The notes beneath the pieces were generated by a model that did no database searches, was not told the DNA's origin, and was given only the letters and a program-made list of their open reading frames with translations. This document shows, one piece after another, positions 7,236-40,870 of a DNA stretch of 50,178 nt. The DNA lies in assembly GCA_021324945.1 (NCBI GenBank), contig JAJPID010000026.1, positions 1 to 50,178 on the forward strand, read 5' to 3'. The stretch comes from Lysobacterales bacterium. GTDB taxonomy: Bacteria; Pseudomonadota; Gammaproteobacteria; Xanthomonadales; Rhodanobacteraceae. The position numbers and the translations under genes were made by a program. Position 1 is the first letter of the stretch. Each line of letters begins with the position of its first letter.

Positions 7236-7339
7236 CTGAGCAGTGAGGTGAGGAGTGAGCAGTGAGTGGGTAGTAGAAGCGCGGATGTCGTCCCAAACGC
7301 CAAAACCTGCGACTCACCACTCAAGACTCACTCACTCCC
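7236..7339. repeat. Heptamer-repeat hairpin, GTGAGNN type (doxX-VOC gap)
   Basis: The left arm has 7-base units CTGAGCA, GTGAG, GTGAGGA, GTGAGCA and GTGAGTG (7236-7268). After a loop, the right arm has ACTCACC, ACTCAAG, ACTCACT and CACTCCC (7312-7339), complementary to the left units. The element fills most of the space between two genes and supplies the TGA stop of the VOC gene (7334-7332, minus strand). Confidence 0.75.
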
Positions 7340-7706
7340 ACGTGTTCGCATGCGGCCCCACCTTGCCGCCGCGCTGCGGGCGGATCACGCAGAAACGCTG
7401 TCCGGTCGGCGCTTCCATCACCACCCAGGTCCTGACCGCCTCGATGCGCTTGGCGCCCAGCTTCTCCAGACGACGCACTTCCGCTTCGATGTCGTCGCTT
7501 TCGATGTCCAGATGCACGCGGCTGGGATGATCCACGCGCTGCACCGTCACGATCGGTTCGTCGTCGTGCGTCTCGATGTCCATGTACTTGCCATCGTTGT
7601 CCGGCTTGTATGAACGCCCCAGCGCCTGCGACCAGAATTTCGCCGCCGCCTCCAGATCGTCGGTGTTGCAATCGATGATGATGCTGCACAGTCGCGAGTG
7701 ATGCAT
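7332..7706 (-). CDS. VOC (glyoxalase/dioxygenase-fold) family protein
   Basis: A 124-residue cytoplasmic protein with two beta-alpha-beta-beta modules: LCSIIIDCNTDDLEAAAKFW at the N-terminus, then VHLDIESDDIEAEVRRLEKLGA and WVVMEAPTGQRFCVIRP. This is the glyoxalase-like subgroup of the vicinal oxygen chelate superfamily, in which substrates cannot be predicted from sequence. A good AAGGGGAAGC ribosome-binding site precedes the ATG. The last codons and the stop lie in a heptamer-repeat element, so the extreme C-terminus (about NTWE) may be repeat-derived. It stands downstream of the AcvB-type gene on the same strand, 36 bases apart, possibly co-transcribed. Confidence 0.85.
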   Translation of the reverse strand: MHHSRLCSIIIDCNTDDLEAAAKFWSQALGRSYKPDNDGKYMDIETHDDEPIVTVQRVDHPSRVHLDIESDDIEAEVRRLEKLGAKRIEAVRTWVVMEAPTGQRFCVIRPQRGGKVGPHANTWE

Positions 7707-32352: not shown

Positions 32353-32428
32353 GTGAGTAGTGAGTCGTGAATAGTGAGTCGTGAAAACCGTCTTCTTACC
32401 ACTCACAACTCACCACTCACAACTCACT
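32353..32428. repeat. Heptamer-repeat hairpin, GTGAGTN type (grx-sdaA gap)
   Basis: The clearest example in the window. Five consecutive 7-base units (GTGAGTA, GTGAGTC, GTGAATA, GTGAGTC, GTGAAAA; 32353-32387) are followed by a short loop. Four complementary units come next (ACTCACA, ACTCACC, ACTCACA, ACTCACT; 32401-32428). The repeat starts four bases upstream of the glutaredoxin-like ATG and ends about 15 bases before the sdaA -10 box. Confidence 0.85.
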
Positions 32429-34546: not shown

Positions 34547-36271
34547 ATGGCGGCTCTCGCGCAGAACGCATCGTCTGGAATCGCCGGTCTGGCGGCGCCG
34601 GTGTGCGCGTTGCTGATCGCGCGCGGCAAACTGAAGGAGGCCGATCTCGCGCGTGCCGAGCGCATCCATTCGGAAAACCCGGAAGGCACGCTGACCGCGT
34701 TGCTGGCGCGGCTGGGTCTGCTGTCCGAACGCGACCTGGCCGAAGCCTGGGCGGAAACCTTGAAGCTGCCCCTGCTTTCCGCGAAGGACGCCGGCGACAC
34801 GCCGCCCGAAGCTTCGCCGTTGTCGCTGCGCTTCATGAAGCAGCACCACGTTCTGCCGATCGGCGAACGCGAAAACGCGCTGGAACTCGCGGTGGCCGAT
34901 CCCGGCGATCCCTATCCGCTGCAAGCCGTTTCGTTGGCGGCGGGCAAGCCGGTGCTGTTGCGCATCGCGTTGCGTTCGGAAATCGACGATCTGATCGAAC
35001 GCTGGCACGGCCAGGGCCGCAGCGCACTCGGCACGATCGTGGAAGGCATGGACGGCGAAGGCGCGAGCGGCGAGGACGACATTGAACATCTGCGCGATCT
35101 TGCTTCCGAAGCGCCGGTGATCCGCCTGGTGAATCTCTTGATCCAGCGTGCGGTGGAAGCTCGCGCTTCCGATATCCATATCGAGCCGTTCGAGAATCGA
35201 TTGAAGGTGCGTTATCGCATCGACGGCGTGCTGCATGAGGTGGAAGCGCCGCCGGCATCCAGCACCGCCGCGGTGATCTCGCGCATCAAGATCATGGCCC
35301 GCATGAACATCGCCGAGCGCCGCCTGCCGCAGGACGGCCGCATCATGCTGCGGGTGCAGGGGAAGGAACTGGACTTGCGCGTGTCGTGCATCCCCACCAG
35401 CTTCGGGGAATCGGTGGTGATGCGCATTCTGGATCGCGGAAACGTGGTGCTGGATTTCGGCGCGCTCGGTTTCGATGCGCAGACCTTGCCGAATTTTCTG
35501 CGCGTGCTAGAGCAGCCGCACGGCATTCTGCTGGTCACCGGACCGACCGGCTCGGGCAAGACCACCACGCTCTATACCGCGCTGTCGAAGATCAACACGC
35601 CGGACCGCAAGATCATCACGGTCGAGGATCCGGTTGAATACCAGCTCGAAGGCATCAACCAGATGCAGGTGAAGCCGCAGATCGGGCTAGATTTCGCCGG
35701 CGCCCTGCGCTCGATCGTGCGGCAGGATCCGGACGTGATCATGATCGGCGAGATGCGCGATCTGGAAACCTGCAAGATCGCCATCCAGTCCGCGTTGACC
35801 GGGCACCTGGTGCTCTCCACGCTGCACACCAATTCCGCTGCGGGCGGCGTGACGCGATTGCTGGACATGGGCGTGGAGGATTATCTGCTGGCGTCGACCG
35901 TCAACGCGATCCTTGCCCAGCGGCTGGTGCGGCGGCTCGATCCAGCCACCGCGGAGCCTTACGAACCGCTGCCGGAACTGGTGAAAGAGTTGGGTCTGGA
36001 CAAACTCACCGATCAACGCCCGTTGCGTTTGTATCGGCCGAAAGCATCGCCGGACAATCCCAGCGGTTTCCGCGGACGCCTCGCCATCATCGAACAACTG
36101 ACGATGAGCGATCCGCTGCGCCGGCTGGTGATGCAGCGCGCCGACGCCACCGACATTGAACGCGCCGCACGTGCCGAGGGCATGCACACCATGTACGAGG
36201 ACGGTCTACGCAAGGCGCTCGCCGGCCTCACCACGATCGAGGAAGTGTTGCGTGTTACGCAGGAAGCGTAG
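34547..36271 (+). CDS. gspE: Type II secretion system ATPase GspE (XpsE)
   Basis: The cytoplasmic hexameric ATPase that powers pseudopilus assembly, docked to GspL and GspF. The 574 residues include the N-terminal MshEN/T2SSE_N region (about 1-160). The catalytic core has Walker A GPTGSGKTTT near 332, the Asp box VEDPVEYQ, Walker B-like DPDVIMIGEMRDLET near 395 and a His box LSTLHTNSA. Most GspE proteins carry a CxxC...CxxC zinc module after the His box. Here the places read RRLDPATAEPYEP and KASPDNPSGFRGR, with no cysteine. First gene of the operon; its stop leads straight into a heptamer repeat. Confidence 0.93.
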   Translation: MAALAQNASSGIAGLAAPVCALLIARGKLKEADLARAERIHSENPEGTLTALLARLGLLSERDLAEAWAETLKLPLLSAKDAGDTPPEASPLSLRFMKQHHVLPIGERENALELAVADPGDPYPLQAVSLAAGKPVLLRIALRSEIDDLIERWHGQGRSALGTIVEGMDGEGASGEDDIEHLRDLASEAPVIRLVNLLIQRAVEARASDIHIEPFENRLKVRYRIDGVLHEVEAPPASSTAAVISRIKIMARMNIAERRLPQDGRIMLRVQGKELDLRVSCIPTSFGESVVMRILDRGNVVLDFGALGFDAQTLPNFLRVLEQPHGILLVTGPTGSGKTTTLYTALSKINTPDRKIITVEDPVEYQLEGINQMQVKPQIGLDFAGALRSIVRQDPDVIMIGEMRDLETCKIAIQSALTGHLVLSTLHTNSAAGGVTRLLDMGVEDYLLASTVNAILAQRLVRRLDPATAEPYEPLPELVKELGLDKLTDQRPLRLYRPKASPDNPSGFRGRLAIIEQLTMSDPLRRLVMQRADATDIERAARAEGMHTMYEDGLRKALAGLTTIEEVLRVTQEA

Positions 36272-36396
36272 AGCAGGGAGCAGGGCAAAGGGAGCAGGCA
36301 ACCGCGCAAACTGCCGGCTGATATCTGTGGTCTCGAGAAAACGATTGTGATGCACACGACGTCTTTTCCCTGCTCCCTGCTCCCTCGTCCCTGATG
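36271..36396. repeat. Heptamer-repeat hairpin, GAGCAGG type (gspE-gspF gap)
   Basis: Left arm units GAGCAGG, GAGCAGG, GCAAAGG and GAGCAGG (36271-36298) begin at the gspE stop codon. The right arm has CCTGCTC, CCTGCTC, CCTCGTC and CCTGATG (36369-36396). The last unit contains the ATG of gspF. The loop of about 70 bases has no ORF. The element occupies the entire gap. Confidence 0.8.
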
Positions 36397-37608
36397 CCTG
36401 CTTTTCACTACAAAGCTGTCACGCCCGCGGGCGAAGTCGTCGAAGGCCGCATGGATGCGGCATCGGTCGAGGACGTGATCGCGCGCCTGCACGAACAGGG
36501 CAATGTGCCGCTGGCGGCGGACGATGCCGACAGTGCCGCGGGACGTTCGTTGTTCGCGCGCTGGCAACGCGCGCCGCTCGGCGGTGCGGCGCTGGTGCAA
36601 TTCACCCAGCAGCTAGGCACCCTGTTGGGTGCGGGCCTGCCACTGGACCGTTCACTGCAGTTGTTGCTTGAAATGCCGGAGGGTGAGCGCGCGCGCAACG
36701 TGGTGAGCCGCGTGCGCGAACGCGTGCGCGGCGGCGCTTCGCTGTCGCGCGCGCTTGAAGAAGAACACGGCGCGTTCTCGCGGCTGTACGTCAGCATGGT
36801 GCGCGCGGGCGAGGCCGGCGGCGCGCTGGACGAAACACTTAAGCGCCTCGCCGATTACTTAGAGCGTGCGCGTTCCTTGCGCGAGAGCGTGATCGGCGCG
36901 CTGGTGTATCCGGCCTTTCTGCTGTTCGGTGTGCTCGGCTCGCTGATCCTGCTGCTGGCCTTCGTGGTGCCGCAGTTCGTGCCGATCTTCGCCGACATGA
37001 ACGTGCCGGTGCCGTTCATCACGCGCATGCTGATGGCGATCGGTTCGTTCCTGCACGACTGGGGCTGGATCGTGCTTGTGCTGTTGATCTTCGGCGCGTT
37101 GTATTTGCGCATGCGCTGGCGGGAACCGGCCGCACGCCGCGCGCTGGATGCGCACCTGTTGCGCGTGAAGGTGTTCGGGCCGCTGCTGTTGAAAGTGGAC
37201 ACCGCGCGATTGCTGCGCACGCTGGGGAGCCTGCTGAAGAACGGTGTGCCGCTGTTGTCCGCGCTGGGCATCGCGCGGCAAGTCGTTGCCAACCGCGAAC
37301 TGGCCGCGCAACTGGAGCCGGTGACGGAATCGGTGAAGGGCGGCGAAGCGCTGTCGCGCGCGTTGGCCGCGCACACCGCATTTCCAAAACTCGCCACGCA
37401 GATCGCGCAAGTCGGCGAGGAATCCGGCACGTTGGACACGATGCTGCTGCGCGCGGCCGACACCTACGACGGCCAGGTGAAGAGTGCGATCGACAAGATG
37501 CTGGCGGCGCTGGTACCGGTGCTGACGATCGTGATGGCCGTGCTGGTGGCCGGCATCATGCTGGCGATCCTGCTGCCGCTGCTGAGTTTGACCGGGAATA
37601 TTCAGTGA
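36394..37608 (+). CDS. gspF: Type II secretion system inner-membrane protein GspF (XpsF)
   Basis: Platform protein of the T2SS inner-membrane complex. The 404 residues start with a short cytoplasmic domain (FHYKAVTPAGEVVEGRMDA). Two T2SSF helical bundles follow, each with the typical signature (FTQQLGTLLGAGLPLDRSL at about 70, and LRTLGSLLKNGVPLLSAL at about 275). Membrane segments lie at about 170-195, 215-235 and near the C-terminus (LVPVLTIVMAVLVAGIMLAI). The start codon is the final ATG of a heptamer unit (CCTGATG). The stop is followed by gspG, with a GTG overlap possible. Confidence 0.93.
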   Translation: MPAFHYKAVTPAGEVVEGRMDAASVEDVIARLHEQGNVPLAADDADSAAGRSLFARWQRAPLGGAALVQFTQQLGTLLGAGLPLDRSLQLLLEMPEGERARNVVSRVRERVRGGASLSRALEEEHGAFSRLYVSMVRAGEAGGALDETLKRLADYLERARSLRESVIGALVYPAFLLFGVLGSLILLLAFVVPQFVPIFADMNVPVPFITRMLMAIGSFLHDWGWIVLVLLIFGALYLRMRWREPAARRALDAHLLRVKVFGPLLLKVDTARLLRTLGSLLKNGVPLLSALGIARQVVANRELAAQLEPVTESVKGGEALSRALAAHTAFPKLATQIAQVGEESGTLDTMLLRAADTYDGQVKSAIDKMLAALVPVLTIVMAVLVAGIMLAILLPLLSLTGNIQ

Positions 37609-37622
37609 TAACGGAGAACGCG

Positions 37623-38159
37623 ATGTTGTCGAAAGTTTTTGGCCGGGACGAAATCAGGAACGAGGGACAAGTAGCGAGGGTGCTTCGCGCTCTCACTTTT
37701 GCGAGCACAAAATTCTCGCGAAAAGAGCGAATTCTTGCGCCCTCGCCACTCGTCTCTCGCTCCTCGAGAGGCTTCACCCTCCTCGAAATGCTGGCGGTGA
37801 TCGTGCTGCTCGGCATCGTCGCGACCATCGTCGCGCGGTCGATCAGCGGCAACGTCACCAAGGCCGACTACAAGGCTGGCAAGCTGCAGGTCGAAAAACT
37901 TTCGCAGGACATCGATGCGTACATGCTGGATAACGGTTCACCGCCGAAAGAATTGCAGGACTTGTTGACCAAGCCCGGCGATGCGCCGTCGTGGAACGGC
38001 CCATACGCCAAACCAGGCGATCTGAAGGATCCGTGGGGCCATCCTTTTGGCTATGTGTATCCGGGTCAGCACGGGCAGTACGACATCATCTTCTACGGCC
38101 GCGACGGCAAACCGGGTGGCGACGGGGTGGATGCGGATTGGGGCAATTGGCAGCAGTGA
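37623..38159 (+). CDS. gspG: Major pseudopilin GspG (XpsG) with long repeat-encoded leader
   Basis: The main subunit of the T2SS pseudopilus, processed by prepilin peptidase. The mature part starts at Phe51 (SRG-FTLLEMLAVIVLLGIVA), with Glu at position 5 as required. The C-terminus has the Asp-rich calcium-binding loop (YGRDGKPGGDGVDADWGNW). The leader is 50 residues from the ATG at 37623 (GGAG six bases upstream), far longer than the usual 5-10. Most of it is encoded by a heptamer repeat (37656-37768). A GTG within the leader (at about residue 20) is an alternative start. The peptidase gene is not in the window. Confidence 0.9.
   Translation: MLSKVFGRDEIRNEGQVARVLRALTFASTKFSRKERILAPSPLVSRSSRGFTLLEMLAVIVLLGIVATIVARSISGNVTKADYKAGKLQVEKLSQDIDAYMLDNGSPPKELQDLLTKPGDAPSWNGPYAKPGDLKDPWGHPFGYVYPGQHGQYDIIFYGRDGKPGGDGVDADWGNWQQ
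37656..37768. repeat. Heptamer-repeat hairpin, CGAGGGN type (inside the gspG leader)
   Basis: Left arm units AGGAACG, AGGGACA, AGTAGCG and AGGGTGC (from 37656). The right arm has CCTCGCC, ACTCGTC, TCTCGCT and CCTCGAG (37741-37768). The loop contains a second inverted pair (TTTTGCGAGCA, TTCTCGCGAAAAGAGCGAA). The whole element lies within the open reading frame, between the start codon and the codons for the conserved FTLLE. Confidence 0.75.
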
Positions 38160-38161
38160 AA

Positions 38162-38259
38162 GCAGGGAGCAGGGAGTAGGAAGCAGGGCAGAACATGAAC
38201 CTATCGGACATCCGCCGCAGGCGTTGCTCCCTGCTCCCCACTCCCTGCTCTCCGCTTCC
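38162..38259. repeat. Heptamer-repeat hairpin, GGGAGCA type (gspG-gspH gap and gspH leader)
   Basis: Left arm units GGGAGCA, GGGAGTA, GGAAGCA and GGGCAGA (38165-38192) follow the gspG stop. The right arm has TGCTCCC, TGCTCCC, CACTCCC, TGCTCTC and CGCTTCC (38225-38259). The gspH ATG is in the loop, and the right arm is translated as part of the gspH leader. The unit is a cyclic permutation of the one between gspE and gspF. Confidence 0.8.
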
Positions 38260-38695
38260 TGAAAGCGGATTCACCCTGCTGGAAATCCTCGCGGTGCTGG
38301 CGCTGATCGGGTTGGCCTTGGCGGTCACGGCGTTCAGTCTCGATGGCGGGTTGCAGCGCGCGAAACTGGACGCGTCCGGCCGCGACATCGCCGCCGCGTT
38401 GCGGCACACGCGCACGCGCGCGTTGGTCGAGCATCGCGCACAGTGGTTCACGTTGGATTTGAAAGCGCGCAGTTTTGAATCGCCCGGCCGCGCGCCGCAG
38501 GACATTCCCGCCGACACGACCTTACATGTGACAACCGCGGCGCAAGATGCGAAGAAGCCCGGCATCGCGCGCATCCGTTTCTTTCCCGACGGCAGCTCCA
38601 CCGGCGGCCACATTGAGCTCGCGCGCAGCAAACGCGAAGTGCGCATTGATGTGGATTGGCTGACGGGCGCGGTGGCGATGAGCGAAAAGCCGTGA
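38195..38695 (+). CDS. gspH: Minor pseudopilin GspH (XpsH)
   Basis: A minor pseudopilin of 166 residues, part of or just below the GspI-J-K tip. The processing site is ESG-FTLLEILAVLALIG at residues 25/26 with Glu5 present. The mature domain has ALRHTRTRALVEHRAQWFTLDL and a GspH-like beta region (RFFPDGSSTGGHIEL). The 25-residue leader MNLSDIRRRRC... continues through SLLPTPCSPLP, which is the translated right arm of a heptamer repeat. No strong ribosome-binding site lies before the ATG, as the upstream bases are also repeat. It ends in an overlap with gspI (GTGA). Confidence 0.88.
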   Translation: MNLSDIRRRRCSLLPTPCSPLPESGFTLLEILAVLALIGLALAVTAFSLDGGLQRAKLDASGRDIAAALRHTRTRALVEHRAQWFTLDLKARSFESPGRAPQDIPADTTLHVTTAAQDAKKPGIARIRFFPDGSSTGGHIELARSKREVRIDVDWLTGAVAMSEKP

Positions 38696-39237
38696 TTCAG
38701 CATTCGAGATTCGGGATTCGCAAGCGCACTCCGCGTTTCACGTGCGTCGGCATTTCCGCCTTTCGCCAATCCCCCCTCCCGAATCCCCAATCCCGGCTCT
38801 CAAGCGGCTTCACCCTGCTCGAAGTCCTCGCCGCGATCGCGTTGCTTGCATTCGCGTTCGCGATCGGTTTGCGCGCGATGAGCGGGGCGCTGGGCAACAG
38901 CGCGCATGGCGAGGCGATGACGCAGGCGGCGCTGGAAGCGCAATCGCTGCTGGATATGCAAGGCTTGACTACGCCATTGCGCACAGGTGTGCAGCAGGGA
39001 CGTTTCGATGACGGCGTGAGCTGGCAATTGCGCACGAGCATCTATAAGCCGCCGAGTCAAAATTCGAATGCCGCCGCAGCGTTTTCTTCGCCGCAGCCGC
39101 TCGCCGGAAATGACCAGCAACCCGGCAACGGCATCAATCTGTTTCGTCTCGATCTGGATGCACGCTACGCCGGCACGCGCACGCTGCACTTTTCGACGTT
39201 GAAGGCGCAGTTGGCGCAGACCGCATCATCACCATGA
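38692..39237 (+). CDS. gspI: Minor pseudopilin GspI (XpsI)
   Basis: A minor pseudopilin that nucleates the pseudopilus tip with GspJ and GspK. Processing is at SSG-FTLLEVLAAIALLAFA, with Glu5. The protein also carries the family's ALEAQSLLD helix region. The start is uncertain. I use the GTG at 38692, overlapping the gspH stop, which gives 181 residues with a 39-residue leader. An open frame also extends to 38656. Most of the leader lies in a GATTCGG-type heptamer repeat. The mature protein is normal in length. It ends overlapping gspJ (ATGA). Confidence 0.85.
   Translation: MIQHSRFGIRKRTPRFTCVGISAFRQSPLPNPQSRLSSGFTLLEVLAAIALLAFAFAIGLRAMSGALGNSAHGEAMTQAALEAQSLLDMQGLTTPLRTGVQQGRFDDGVSWQLRTSIYKPPSQNSNAAAAFSSPQPLAGNDQQPGNGINLFRLDLDARYAGTRTLHFSTLKAQLAQTASSP
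38694..38799. repeat. Heptamer-repeat hairpin, GATTCGG type (inside the gspI leader)
   Basis: Left arm units GATTCAG, CATTCGA, GATTCGG and GATTCGC (38694-38721) start at the gspH stop. The right arm has CCAATCC, CCCCTCC, CGAATCC and CCAATCC (38766-38793). It ends shortly before the FTLLE codons. The whole repeat is read in frame as the gspI leader. Confidence 0.8.
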
Positions 39238-39962
39238 TTTCTCGGATTGCCCCCCATTCCGTTCTTCCTCCGCTGGCAGGGGAACGTGTCCGGAGAACGG
39301 AAGGGAGGCGCGCACATGAGTGCGGTTTTACTTTGTTGGAAATCCTGATCGCGCTGGTGCTGATGGCGTTGGCGATGGTGGGCGTGTGGGGCGCATTGCG
39401 CACCGGCGCAAAGCTCTCGCGCAGTGCCGATGCGTCGATCCAGCAGAGCGACCGTGTGCGCGCGGTGCAGCAGTTCCTGCGCGACTATCTCGGCGGTGCG
39501 CAACCGCAGGCGTATGCGCCGGCAGCCGACCAGCCCGCGCGCATGTTCGAAGGCGCAGCACAAAAACTCACTTGGGTCGCTCCGATGCCCGCGCAACTGG
39601 GCGACGGCGGTTTGTTCGTGCAGACATTGCAACTGGTGCGTGACAAGGATGACGCCGATTACGCGTTGCAACTGACTTACACACCACTGTCGGGCGATGG
39701 CGTGAACTCGCAGGCTGCGCAACCGGAAACGCTGCTCGACCATGTCGCCGATGCGCATTTTGAATATCTGGTCGCAGTCGGCAACGGCAAACCCGCCCGC
39801 TGGCGCAGCACCTGGCAGAGCACATCCGGCTTGCCGCTGGCCGTGCGCGTCACGCTGACGCCCGCGTGGCGCGAGCGCGTCGCATTTCCATCGATGTCGA
39901 TTCCGTTGCGCGCGGGCAACGGCTTCAGCATCAGCGTGCCGGAATCGGGAGCGCAGCCGTGA
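39234..39962 (+). CDS. gspJ: Minor pseudopilin GspJ (XpsJ)
   Basis: Tip pseudopilin of 242 residues. Processing is at ECG-FTLLEILIALVLMALAM, residues 31/32, Glu5 present. The mature domain has the RAVQQFLRDYLGG region and a C-terminal beta domain typical of GspJ. The ATG overlaps the gspI stop. The 31-residue leader (SVLPPLAGERVRRTEGRR) comes from a palindromic repeat (TTCCTCCGCTGGCAGGGGAA) resembling the one inside purL, not from a heptamer element. It ends in an overlap with gspK (GTGA). Confidence 0.88.
   Translation: MISRIAPHSVLPPLAGERVRRTEGRRAHECGFTLLEILIALVLMALAMVGVWGALRTGAKLSRSADASIQQSDRVRAVQQFLRDYLGGAQPQAYAPAADQPARMFEGAAQKLTWVAPMPAQLGDGGLFVQTLQLVRDKDDADYALQLTYTPLSGDGVNSQAAQPETLLDHVADAHFEYLVAVGNGKPARWRSTWQSTSGLPLAVRVTLTPAWRERVAFPSMSIPLRAGNGFSISVPESGAQP
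39252..39312. repeat. Palindromic repeat in the gspJ leader
   Basis: CCATTCCGTTCTTCC on the left and GGAGAACGGAAGGG on the right form an imperfect inverted repeat around CTCCGCTGGCAGGGGAACG. The core resembles CTTCTCCCGCTTGCGGGG inside purL (18610-18628). It is read in frame as PHSVLPPLAGERV. Confidence 0.5.
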
Positions 39963-40870
39963 AACGCGCACGTGGCGCGGCGTTGCTGTTCGCGTTGTGG
40001 GCGGTGGCGCTGCTGGCGGCTCTGCTTGCTGGGCTCGCTGTCGGTGCGCGTGGTGAAGCGGAAAGCGCGCGTTACGCCTACGAACAGGCACGTGCGCGTT
40101 ACGCAGCCGAAGCGGGCATCGCGCGCGCGGTCGATGCCTTGCGCGCTGCCGACAGCGCGCGCCGCTGGGTGCCGGATGGCCGCGACTATCATTTCGATTT
40201 CGACGGCGCGAAAGTGGAAGTGCGCATCGAGGACGCCTCGGGCCAGGTCGATCTCAATGCCGCCACGCCACAGGTGCTGATCAATCTGTTTCTCGCCGCG
40301 GGCGCGGATCAGCAGAAGGCGCAGGCGCTCAGCGACGCGGTGCAGGATTGGCGCGATGCCGACGACATCCCGCGCGCGCACGGCGCGGAAGCCGATGCCT
40401 ATAAGCGCGCCGGCTTGAAATGGCTGCCGCGAAACGGGCCGTTCCGCAGCAGCGACGAACTGGCCCGCGTGTACGGCATGACCGATGCGCTGTATCGAAA
40501 ACTCGCAGACGCGGTAACGGTGTATTCGGGCCGCAATTTTCCCGATCCGCAATACGCAGGTCCGCTGGCGATGGCGGCCGCGCGCGACGGCGACATCGCT
40601 TCCGCCACGCGCGAGGTCGAGACGCGCCGCGCGCGTCCCGCGGTCGATGCGGCCAGTCAGCCGGTGAGTGGACTCGATTCGCAGACGCTGGTCGCCGGCT
40701 TCGGCGGCTTGACGCAGGAAATCCGCAGCACCGCCACGCTGCCCGATGGCACCCGATCGCAACAGAAAGCGATCCTGCGCCTGACCGCGATCAGTGGGAA
40801 TTTGCGGCCTTACTCCGTGTTAGGCTGGCGCGACTTTTTGGACGGCGACGACACTCTCGATTCTCGATGA
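39959..40870 (+). CDS. gspK: Minor pseudopilin GspK (XpsK)
   Basis: The large tip pseudopilin, 303 residues. The short basic leader MKRARG precedes AALLFALWAVALLAALLAG; GspK characteristically lacks Glu5 and has ALL after the Gly. The T2SSK features are ESARYAYEQARARYAAEAGIARA, a VEVRIEDASGQVDLNAA turn, and a helical SAM-like region with DWRDADD and SDELARVYGMT. The GTG start overlaps the gspJ stop. In contrast to gspG-J, there is no repeat before this gene and its leader is of normal length. Confidence 0.9.
   Translation: MKRARGAALLFALWAVALLAALLAGLAVGARGEAESARYAYEQARARYAAEAGIARAVDALRAADSARRWVPDGRDYHFDFDGAKVEVRIEDASGQVDLNAATPQVLINLFLAAGADQQKAQALSDAVQDWRDADDIPRAHGAEADAYKRAGLKWLPRNGPFRSSDELARVYGMTDALYRKLADAVTVYSGRNFPDPQYAGPLAMAAARDGDIASATREVETRRARPAVDAASQPVSGLDSQTLVAGFGGLTQEIRSTATLPDGTRSQQKAILRLTAISGNLRPYSVLGWRDFLDGDDTLDSR

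Follow-up and report, generated by a model that had tools for sequence, protein, structure and literature searches.

The GGGANTN repeats of Xanthomonas are built from 7-nt, G-rich GGGA units that often form convergent inverted pairs and lie mostly between co-directed genes (Rehm et al. 2015; PMC4692102). The parts of that report consulted here place 89–93% of the repeats in intergenic DNA, identify no role for them, and mark xpsF as repeat-associated in a figure legend. In integron cassettes, according to the consulted parts of a second paper, intervening stem-loops impede ribosomes, and a short open reading frame (ORF) across the stem-loop favours the next cassette via termination-reinitiation (PMC8876359). 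The leaders of type IV prepilins measure 6–26 aa in the examples given in the relevant part of a third source, and about 15–30 aa in type IVb (PMC4471445). Very long leaders appear in the major pilins of Streptococcus sanguinis, as described in the part consulted of a fourth (PMC10191384), and long prepilin leaders as such are already known. Here we analyse the type II secretion system (T2SS) operon in a 50,178 nt stretch of DNA from a Lysobacterales bacterium of the family Rhodanobacteraceae (GenBank assembly GCA_021324945.1, contig JAJPID010000026.1, positions 1–50178; hereafter, the window). Hairpin-forming repeats lie at the gene junctions of this operon. Comparison with relatives showed that the reading frame is kept across such junctions, that start codons are anchored where the upstream gene ends, and that linker ORFs span the spacer before gspF, their start codon depending on a synonymous codon of gspE. 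These patterns suggest that ribosomes are probably kept running through the junction repeats, with cleavable leaders absorbing the product. In the literature, as represented by the consulted parts of the papers, no description was found of repeat-derived prepilin leaders or of translated T2SS spacers.

The operon of the window has the gene order gspE-F-G-H-I-J-K, and all the features described below lie on the forward (+) strand. A preliminary description of this DNA had assigned unusually long leaders to four adjacent pseudopilins, and the lengths and coordinates were reproduced: 50, 25, 39 and 31 residues precede the FTLLE cleavage site in GspG, GspH, GspI and GspJ, respectively. All four proteins have an N_methyl (PF07963) motif scoring above the cut-off, with a Gly preceding FTLLE and the hydrophobic stretch. 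The gspG leader (37623–37772) starts at ATG 37623, with GGAG upstream at 37613–37616 and an in-frame GTG at 37605 that overlaps the gspF stop; mature GspG plus its stop occupies 37773–38159. The gspH leader (38195–38269) starts at ATG 38195. The gspI leader (38692–38808) starts at GTG 38692, which overlaps the gspH stop, and the gspJ leader (39234–39326) starts at ATG 39234, which overlaps the gspI stop. The leader of GspK (39959–39976, from GTG 39959) has six codons and no repeat, as the preliminary description had stated.

That the four leaders are written in repeat DNA was accurate for gspG and gspI, each of which contains one complete hairpin with 7-nt periodicity (37656–37764 in gspG, on the basis of folding; arms 38702–38720 and 38768–38795 in gspI). 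For gspH it holds in part: the left arm (38160–38188) of the G-H heptamer hairpin (38160–38257) is intergenic, precedes the ATG and bears a Shine-Dalgarno (SD)-like AGGG, and the right arm (38229–38257) alone belongs to the leader. The gspJ leader contains the palindrome described (arms 39251–39265 and 39294–39308), for which no second copy was found in its own genome (best other match 18 nt, E 0.39). The G, H and I hairpins all differ from one another. The series had also been ended too early, since the spacer between gspE and gspF carries a hairpin of the same kind (36271–36402; arms 36271–36310 and 36367–36402). Folding z-scores, each obtained against 100 dinucleotide shuffles, were −3.8 for E-F, −3.7 for G, −5.0 for H, −3.1 for I, −1.9 for J and −0.04 for K. 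The lag-7 match fraction was 0.40 in the window's four junctions versus 0.22 in matched mature coding sequence.

Relatives were collected in two sets. The first comprised 37 of 40 genomes (15 of the same genus, nine of other genera of the family and 13 of the order; G025 gave no match, and G026 and G035 were omitted). The T2SS operon was present in all 37, in some of them cut by contig ends. The second, confined to the family, comprised 80 of 100 new genomes with a match; the 20 omitted were 19 with weaker matches or cut contigs, plus G117. The comparison set thus consisted of the window, 15 congeners and 89 loci from other genera of the family. In 118 loci, 446 junctions of G, H, I and J were assigned out of a possible 472, the remainder having no BLAST match, motif or neighbour. 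Another 47 loci came from Pseudomonas (47 G, 41 H, 34 I and 30 J junctions). The cleavage site was taken as the last motif match in the first leader count, and thereafter as the motif match nearest to the BLAST start. Junctions of H, I and J were called long at ≥60 nt.

Untranslated repeats should make junction length modulo 3 irrelevant, and an upstream start would be expected in frame with FTLLE in one third of cases by chance. The frame was tested from an anchor, namely an NTG overlapping the upstream stop at offset −4 and, for gspH in the genus of the window, also a GTG at −23 inside gspG. Such a start was available in 92 long junctions of H, I and J, and in 88 of them it was in frame with FTLLE (24/24 in the genus and 64/68 in other genera). 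Counted as distinct lengths, the in-frame cases in other genera were 14/14 for I, 14/14 for J and 16/20 for H. The frame was also free of stops in 85 of these 88 junctions. Starts at offset −1 were in frame as well for I and J, both in other genera of the family (3/3 and 4/4) and in the genus (1/1 and 1/1). Not every long junction has the standard anchor: in the genus, the −23 start was missing from three of 12 H junctions (which have the −4 start), and the −4 start from one of 10 I and five of eight J junctions; in other genera, the −4 start was missing from 35/70 H, 8/25 I and 2/18 J junctions. Reading upstream from FTLLE, its frame reached a start before a stop in 86/86 junctions of ≥60 nt of the first set, compared with 51 and 45 for the other two frames. 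Since every gene needs some start, the informative part of this result lies in the 38 junctions whose nearest ATG, GTG or TTG is ≥20 codons from FTLLE. The F-G lengths of the genus showed a partial bias modulo 3 (10, 4 and 1).

The spacer between gspE and gspF was chosen as an untranslated control, because the start of GspF is fixed: 102 of 103 family loci have a start codon at the conserved N-terminus (ATG 82, GTG 19, TTG 1), even where repeats occupy the preceding spacer, and the remaining locus has a CTG. It failed as a control: 43 of the 55 long spacers from other genera had a length of 0 modulo 3 (29 of 39 distinct lengths). The excess reflects a second frame, which begins at a GTG at position −20 inside gspE, runs across the repeats and ends at a TGA overlapping or adjoining the gspF start. 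In that frame the first stop falls ≤12 nt from the gspF start in 49/55 of these spacers (8 and 0 in the other frames). When any ATG or GTG from −40 to +2 was allowed as the start, a linker ORF was found in 52/55, versus 0–3/55 at nine shifted anchors. In six genomes of one genus, gspF starts with ATGG instead of ATGA, the TGA stands just before the ATG, and the spacer length is correspondingly 2 modulo 3. A linker stop that overlaps or adjoins the downstream start, as expected for translational coupling, is found in other genera; the window attains it by a two-step relay. The eight long spacers of the window's genus have mixed lengths modulo 3 (1 in four, 0 in three and 2 in one), and all eight have the GTG. 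An E-F linker is also present in G037, which belongs to another family of the order.

The GTG at −20 was present in 46/55 long and 1/34 short spacers of other genera. It arises when the Arg codon of the ..LRVTQE.. segment of GspE is CGT rather than CGC. CGT was used for that Arg in 47/55 loci with long spacers and in 1/34 with short ones, and the sole short case (30 nt) also has a linker. Elsewhere in the gspE genes of the family, 581 of 4423 CGN codons are CGT. The E-F distance is ≤25 nt in Pseudomonas, and 5/47 loci there use CGT for that Arg. In the genus and family together, a GGAGG lay just upstream of the −20 position in 48/63 loci with long spacers and in 5/40 with short ones. A GspF tree with 103 rows gave 13 independent pairs of differing spacer class; the GTG differed in the same direction in ∼7, in the opposite direction in none, and did not differ in ∼6 (median p 0.016, range 0.016–0.031).

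In the window, gspE, which codes for the ATPase (34547–36271), contains an out-of-frame GTG at 36252, near its end, created by the CGT codon. The predicted linker ORF that starts there (36252–36350) reads 32 codons across the left arm of the E-F hairpin and stops at a TGATG at 36350, where the TGA overlaps the next ATG. A second predicted linker ORF, from that ATG (36350–36394), reads 14 codons across the right arm and ends at the TGATG of the gspF start. The two successive ORFs can thus cover the whole spacer by relay. The gspF gene (36394–37608), whose product is not cleaved, starts at the conserved N-terminus. At the G-H junction, a possible mini-ORF (38156–38179) starts at a GTG overlapping the gspG stop, has seven codons and is closed by a TAG within the left arm, leaving 15 nt to the gspH ATG; its position is suggestive of a further linker. 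Long spacers are rare at the remaining junctions (5/113 for J-K and 4/109 for K-L). Three of the five GspK leaders at long J-K junctions start in frame at an ATGA overlap, and two of the four long K-L spacers carry a linker ending in ATGA at gspL.

The leaders themselves vary greatly. Between the upstream stop and FTLLE lie 10 to 335 nt in the different members of the genus, and the GspJ leader has nine residues in some congeners and 31 in the window, the ATGA overlap at which it starts being the same. The leader sequences show no conservation; the GspG of G015 is 86% identical to that of the window, and its leaders are different. Leaders of more than 26 residues were found in the genus in 11/13 G, 11/14 H, 10/14 I and 8/15 J, and in other genera of the family in 24/66 G, 51/71 H, 15/83 I and 15/83 J, the longest, by the start rule, reaching 105 residues. 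The Pseudomonas loci, whose GspG is 60–68% identical to that of the window, had such leaders in 0/47 G, 0/41 H, 1/34 I and 1/30 J, and no heptamer pair was found in their 152 junctions. In many Pseudomonas (L109–L188), the GspG of the T2SS is as close to that of the window as is that of several genera of its own family, which suggests transfer. The 145 leaders of more than 26 residues are stop-free by construction, and basic: their net charge was negative in 1/145 (5 and 6 in the other frames), and the charge of the last 15 residues was zero or less in 2/145 (36 and 14 in the other frames). The denser the heptamers in a genome, the greater was the summed length of its junctions (rho 0.82, n = 23, for the family including the genus; 0.75, n = 15, for the genus; 0.67, n = 35, for all; values uncorrected for relatedness).

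These comparisons can be joined in a model. Repeat DNA, mostly heptamer hairpins plus other palindromic elements, would accumulate at T2SS junctions at which, in many relatives, neighbouring genes share a few bases. With its start codon kept at or close to the upstream gene's end, the repeat would stay translated. In the prepilin-type subunits (G, H, I, J and occasionally K) its translation product would form an oversized basic leader on the protein, a leader that prepilin peptidase is expected to remove. GspF, and GspL in two cases, begin at a conserved N-terminus; there the repeat would instead be translated as a linker ORF of its own, with a stop that overlaps or adjoins the following start, ribosomes terminating at the one and re-initiating at the other. 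Translation of leaders and linkers, and cleavage of the former, is what we infer from the genomic comparison. The benefit may be unbroken translation, through the opening of hairpins, coupling and the avoidance of polarity. The E-F spacer has no need to be translated, yet a frame beginning at a start codon within gspE stays open as far as the gspF start. This points to translation through the repeats being under selection; that such selection appears to act on the junction repeats is the new and stronger part of the finding. Heptamer arrays would be easy to keep open, since 7 is 1 modulo 3 and a stop-free array therefore reads the same heptapeptide in all three frames. As a broader rule, for which the chances seem to us a little short of even, cells may 'pave' invading or expanding repeats, keeping them stop-free from a start in the upstream gene, fusing the product to the next protein where it will be cut off and otherwise reading it as a linker ORF, a new start being provided by the synonymous change CGC to CGT.

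Several observations weigh against this reading. Of the long H junctions in other genera, four have the −4 codon out of frame, and starts at offset −1 are mixed (six in frame and five out). The three in-frame junctions interrupted by a stop are the gspH of the window, where a TAG in the left arm ends the frame of the −4 GTG, the gspH of L079 and the gspI of L279. F-G lengths are unbiased modulo 3 in other genera (34, 29 and 25), the starts lying at varied distances past the gspF stop, and no in-frame start is found ≤30 nt from the upstream stop in 5/61 junctions of the genus and 31/334 of other family members. A linker ending directly at gspF occurs in five of the eight long E-F spacers of the genus: the window needs its relay, the linker of L075 ends 15 nt before gspF, and in L061 no chain leads from gspE. 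One of the six congeners with a short spacer has the GTG, and the GTG of the window is preceded by GAGGAAG and not by GGAGG. Two of the four long K-L spacers contain no linker, and G037 combines the densest heptamers with short G, I and J leaders. The evidence for the broader rule comes from the T2SS operon.

The preliminary description proposed that leaders may be the one place where insertions are tolerated. In its pure form, this explanation holds that in-frame insertions in discarded leaders are neutral, and that the sole selection is for the protein still to be made. The wide variation in leader sequence and length would follow from it, as would the agreement between junction length and genomic heptamer density, and the genome of the window has seven further pilin-like genes with normal leaders, the nearest start lying ≤11 codons away. 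The absorption of repeats as leaders by G, H, I and J, together with the fixed start of GspF, bears out this much of the proposal. Pure tolerance leaves unexplained both the linker ORF in the E-F spacer, which need not be translated, and its association with CGT and GTG; we regard it as an unlikely account of the whole. The preliminary description also suggested that the hairpins might control translation and thereby set pseudopilin ratios. Such regulators would act by hiding ribosome sites, and the SD-like AGGG of gspH does lie in a left arm that pairs with the right one. The arms differ among relatives, the corresponding junction of some congeners lacks a hairpin, and ribosomes passing through the arms would hold the hairpins open much of the time; a regulatory role seems very improbable.

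The preliminary description named two findings that would tell against it, namely leaders conserved as amino acids among relatives, and true starts at non-ATG codons just before FTLLE that would leave the repeats untranslated. The compared loci show no conservation of leader amino acids. As to the starts, a canonical start codon does lie 13–15 codons before FTLLE in several loci (for example, in the GspG of G015, G005 and G003). The keeping of frame from the upstream start and the open frames argue against starts beside FTLLE, and the window's gspG has no ATG, GTG or TTG among the 30 codons preceding that site; such starts therefore seem very improbable. Continued translation through the junction repeats, with leaders as the cleavable outlet, is the reading that we prefer.

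The repeats of the window were also compared with the GGGANTN class. The Tandem Repeats Finder (TRF) program detected a period of 7, and the unit types at the locus are AGCAGGG, ACGAGGG and ATTCGGG. A 7-nt period with a GGGA core in two or more units, a broad definition of the class, is present; a GGGAATC unit, at least one of which the stricter criterion of Rehm et al. demands, has no copy on either strand of positions 36260–39335. The units are thus relatives of the class rather than members in the strict sense. The GGGANNNGGGANNNGGGA motif has 30 copies in the genome, five of them within the T2SS operon, versus eight for a backward control pattern. A three-unit motif matched in the E-F, H and I junctions; it had no match in the G leader, although this has a 7-nt unit, and elsewhere in the genome the G leader gave weak partial matches only (best 31 nt, E 6e-4). 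In a census of 41 genomes, the three-unit motif was frequent (≥17 matches) in 12 of the 15 congeners and few or absent in G002, G005 and G006; it was frequent in four and scarce in five of the nine other genera of the family. Among 16 genomes of the order, G037 had 1403 matches and the others ≤16. The motif count of G010 is uncertain, since the backward control is nearly as common there (84 versus 114). A scan of 19 of the 30 heptamer loci of the window's own genome (11 that overlapped or belonged to the T2SS were skipped) relied on a crude ORF caller, and its result was not used.

Other repeats were observed along the way. Two further heptamer inverted repeats, with GTGAGTA-type units, lie in the window outside the operon (7237–7341 and 32353–32427); the genes on either side of them are not clearly defined. 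The F-G junctions of L066, L067 and L071 contain nested repeats, in which a second palindromic element, CATTCCnnnGGAATCC-like and in frame with GspG, occupies the loop of a heptamer hairpin. Repeats of other kinds also occur in leaders: the gspH-gspI junction of L149 (473 nt) contains tandem VQAGLERTSVGARLA units, and the GspJ leader at the gspI-gspJ junction of L130 contains MKRAVMRRAVMKPA-like units. In L017 (positions 1501–1690; G000 C46), an open frame of 659 codons contains a heptamer inverted pair within its first third, which may be an N-terminal extension of another gene.

The model offers a concrete rule for how an operon survives the arrival of hairpin-forming repeats. It ties an oddity of signal peptide length to the translation of the operon, and has a synonymous codon choice track a start codon that lies in a different frame. 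Pseudopilin starts called automatically in these bacteria need checking, as does the 'intergenic' label of such repeats. If general, the rule would mean that operons in repeat-rich genomes have a hidden layer of design.

The attC site of integrons is a recombination site. The short ORFs of attC, such as ORF-11, resemble the linkers described here in that, according to the consulted parts of the source, a short ORF carries ribosomes over a hairpin to the next gene (PMC8876359), and a benefit like that in integrons would apply to the present junction repeats. Two things differ here: a synonymous codon of the upstream gene supplies the linker start, and proteins that can be cleaved have a fused leader in place of the linker. 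The Xanthomonas repeats share with those of the window the 7-nt GGGA units, the convergent pairs and a location that is mostly between co-directed genes, the units of the window being more varied; the examined parts of that report are silent on prepilin leaders, frame keeping and linker ORFs (PMC4692102). The palindromic elements of Rickettsia are likewise palindromic repeats read in frame within proteins, as described in the consulted part of the source (PMC10969869). In contrast to them, the repeats of the window lie at gene starts, encode no conserved peptide, and come to lie either in a segment that is expected to be cut off or in a separate ORF. A conserved peptide from copies in unrelated genes, typical of the Rickettsia elements, was not found here: the leaders of congeners differ, and the J palindrome is a single copy. 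Finally, type IV prepilin leaders, in the examples of the part consulted, are hydrophilic, mostly basic, and end in a Gly before a hydrophobic stretch (PMC4471445), as do the leaders described here. Those of the window's family differ in reaching 105 residues, in having no conserved sequence, and in being written in repeat DNA that differs from species to species.

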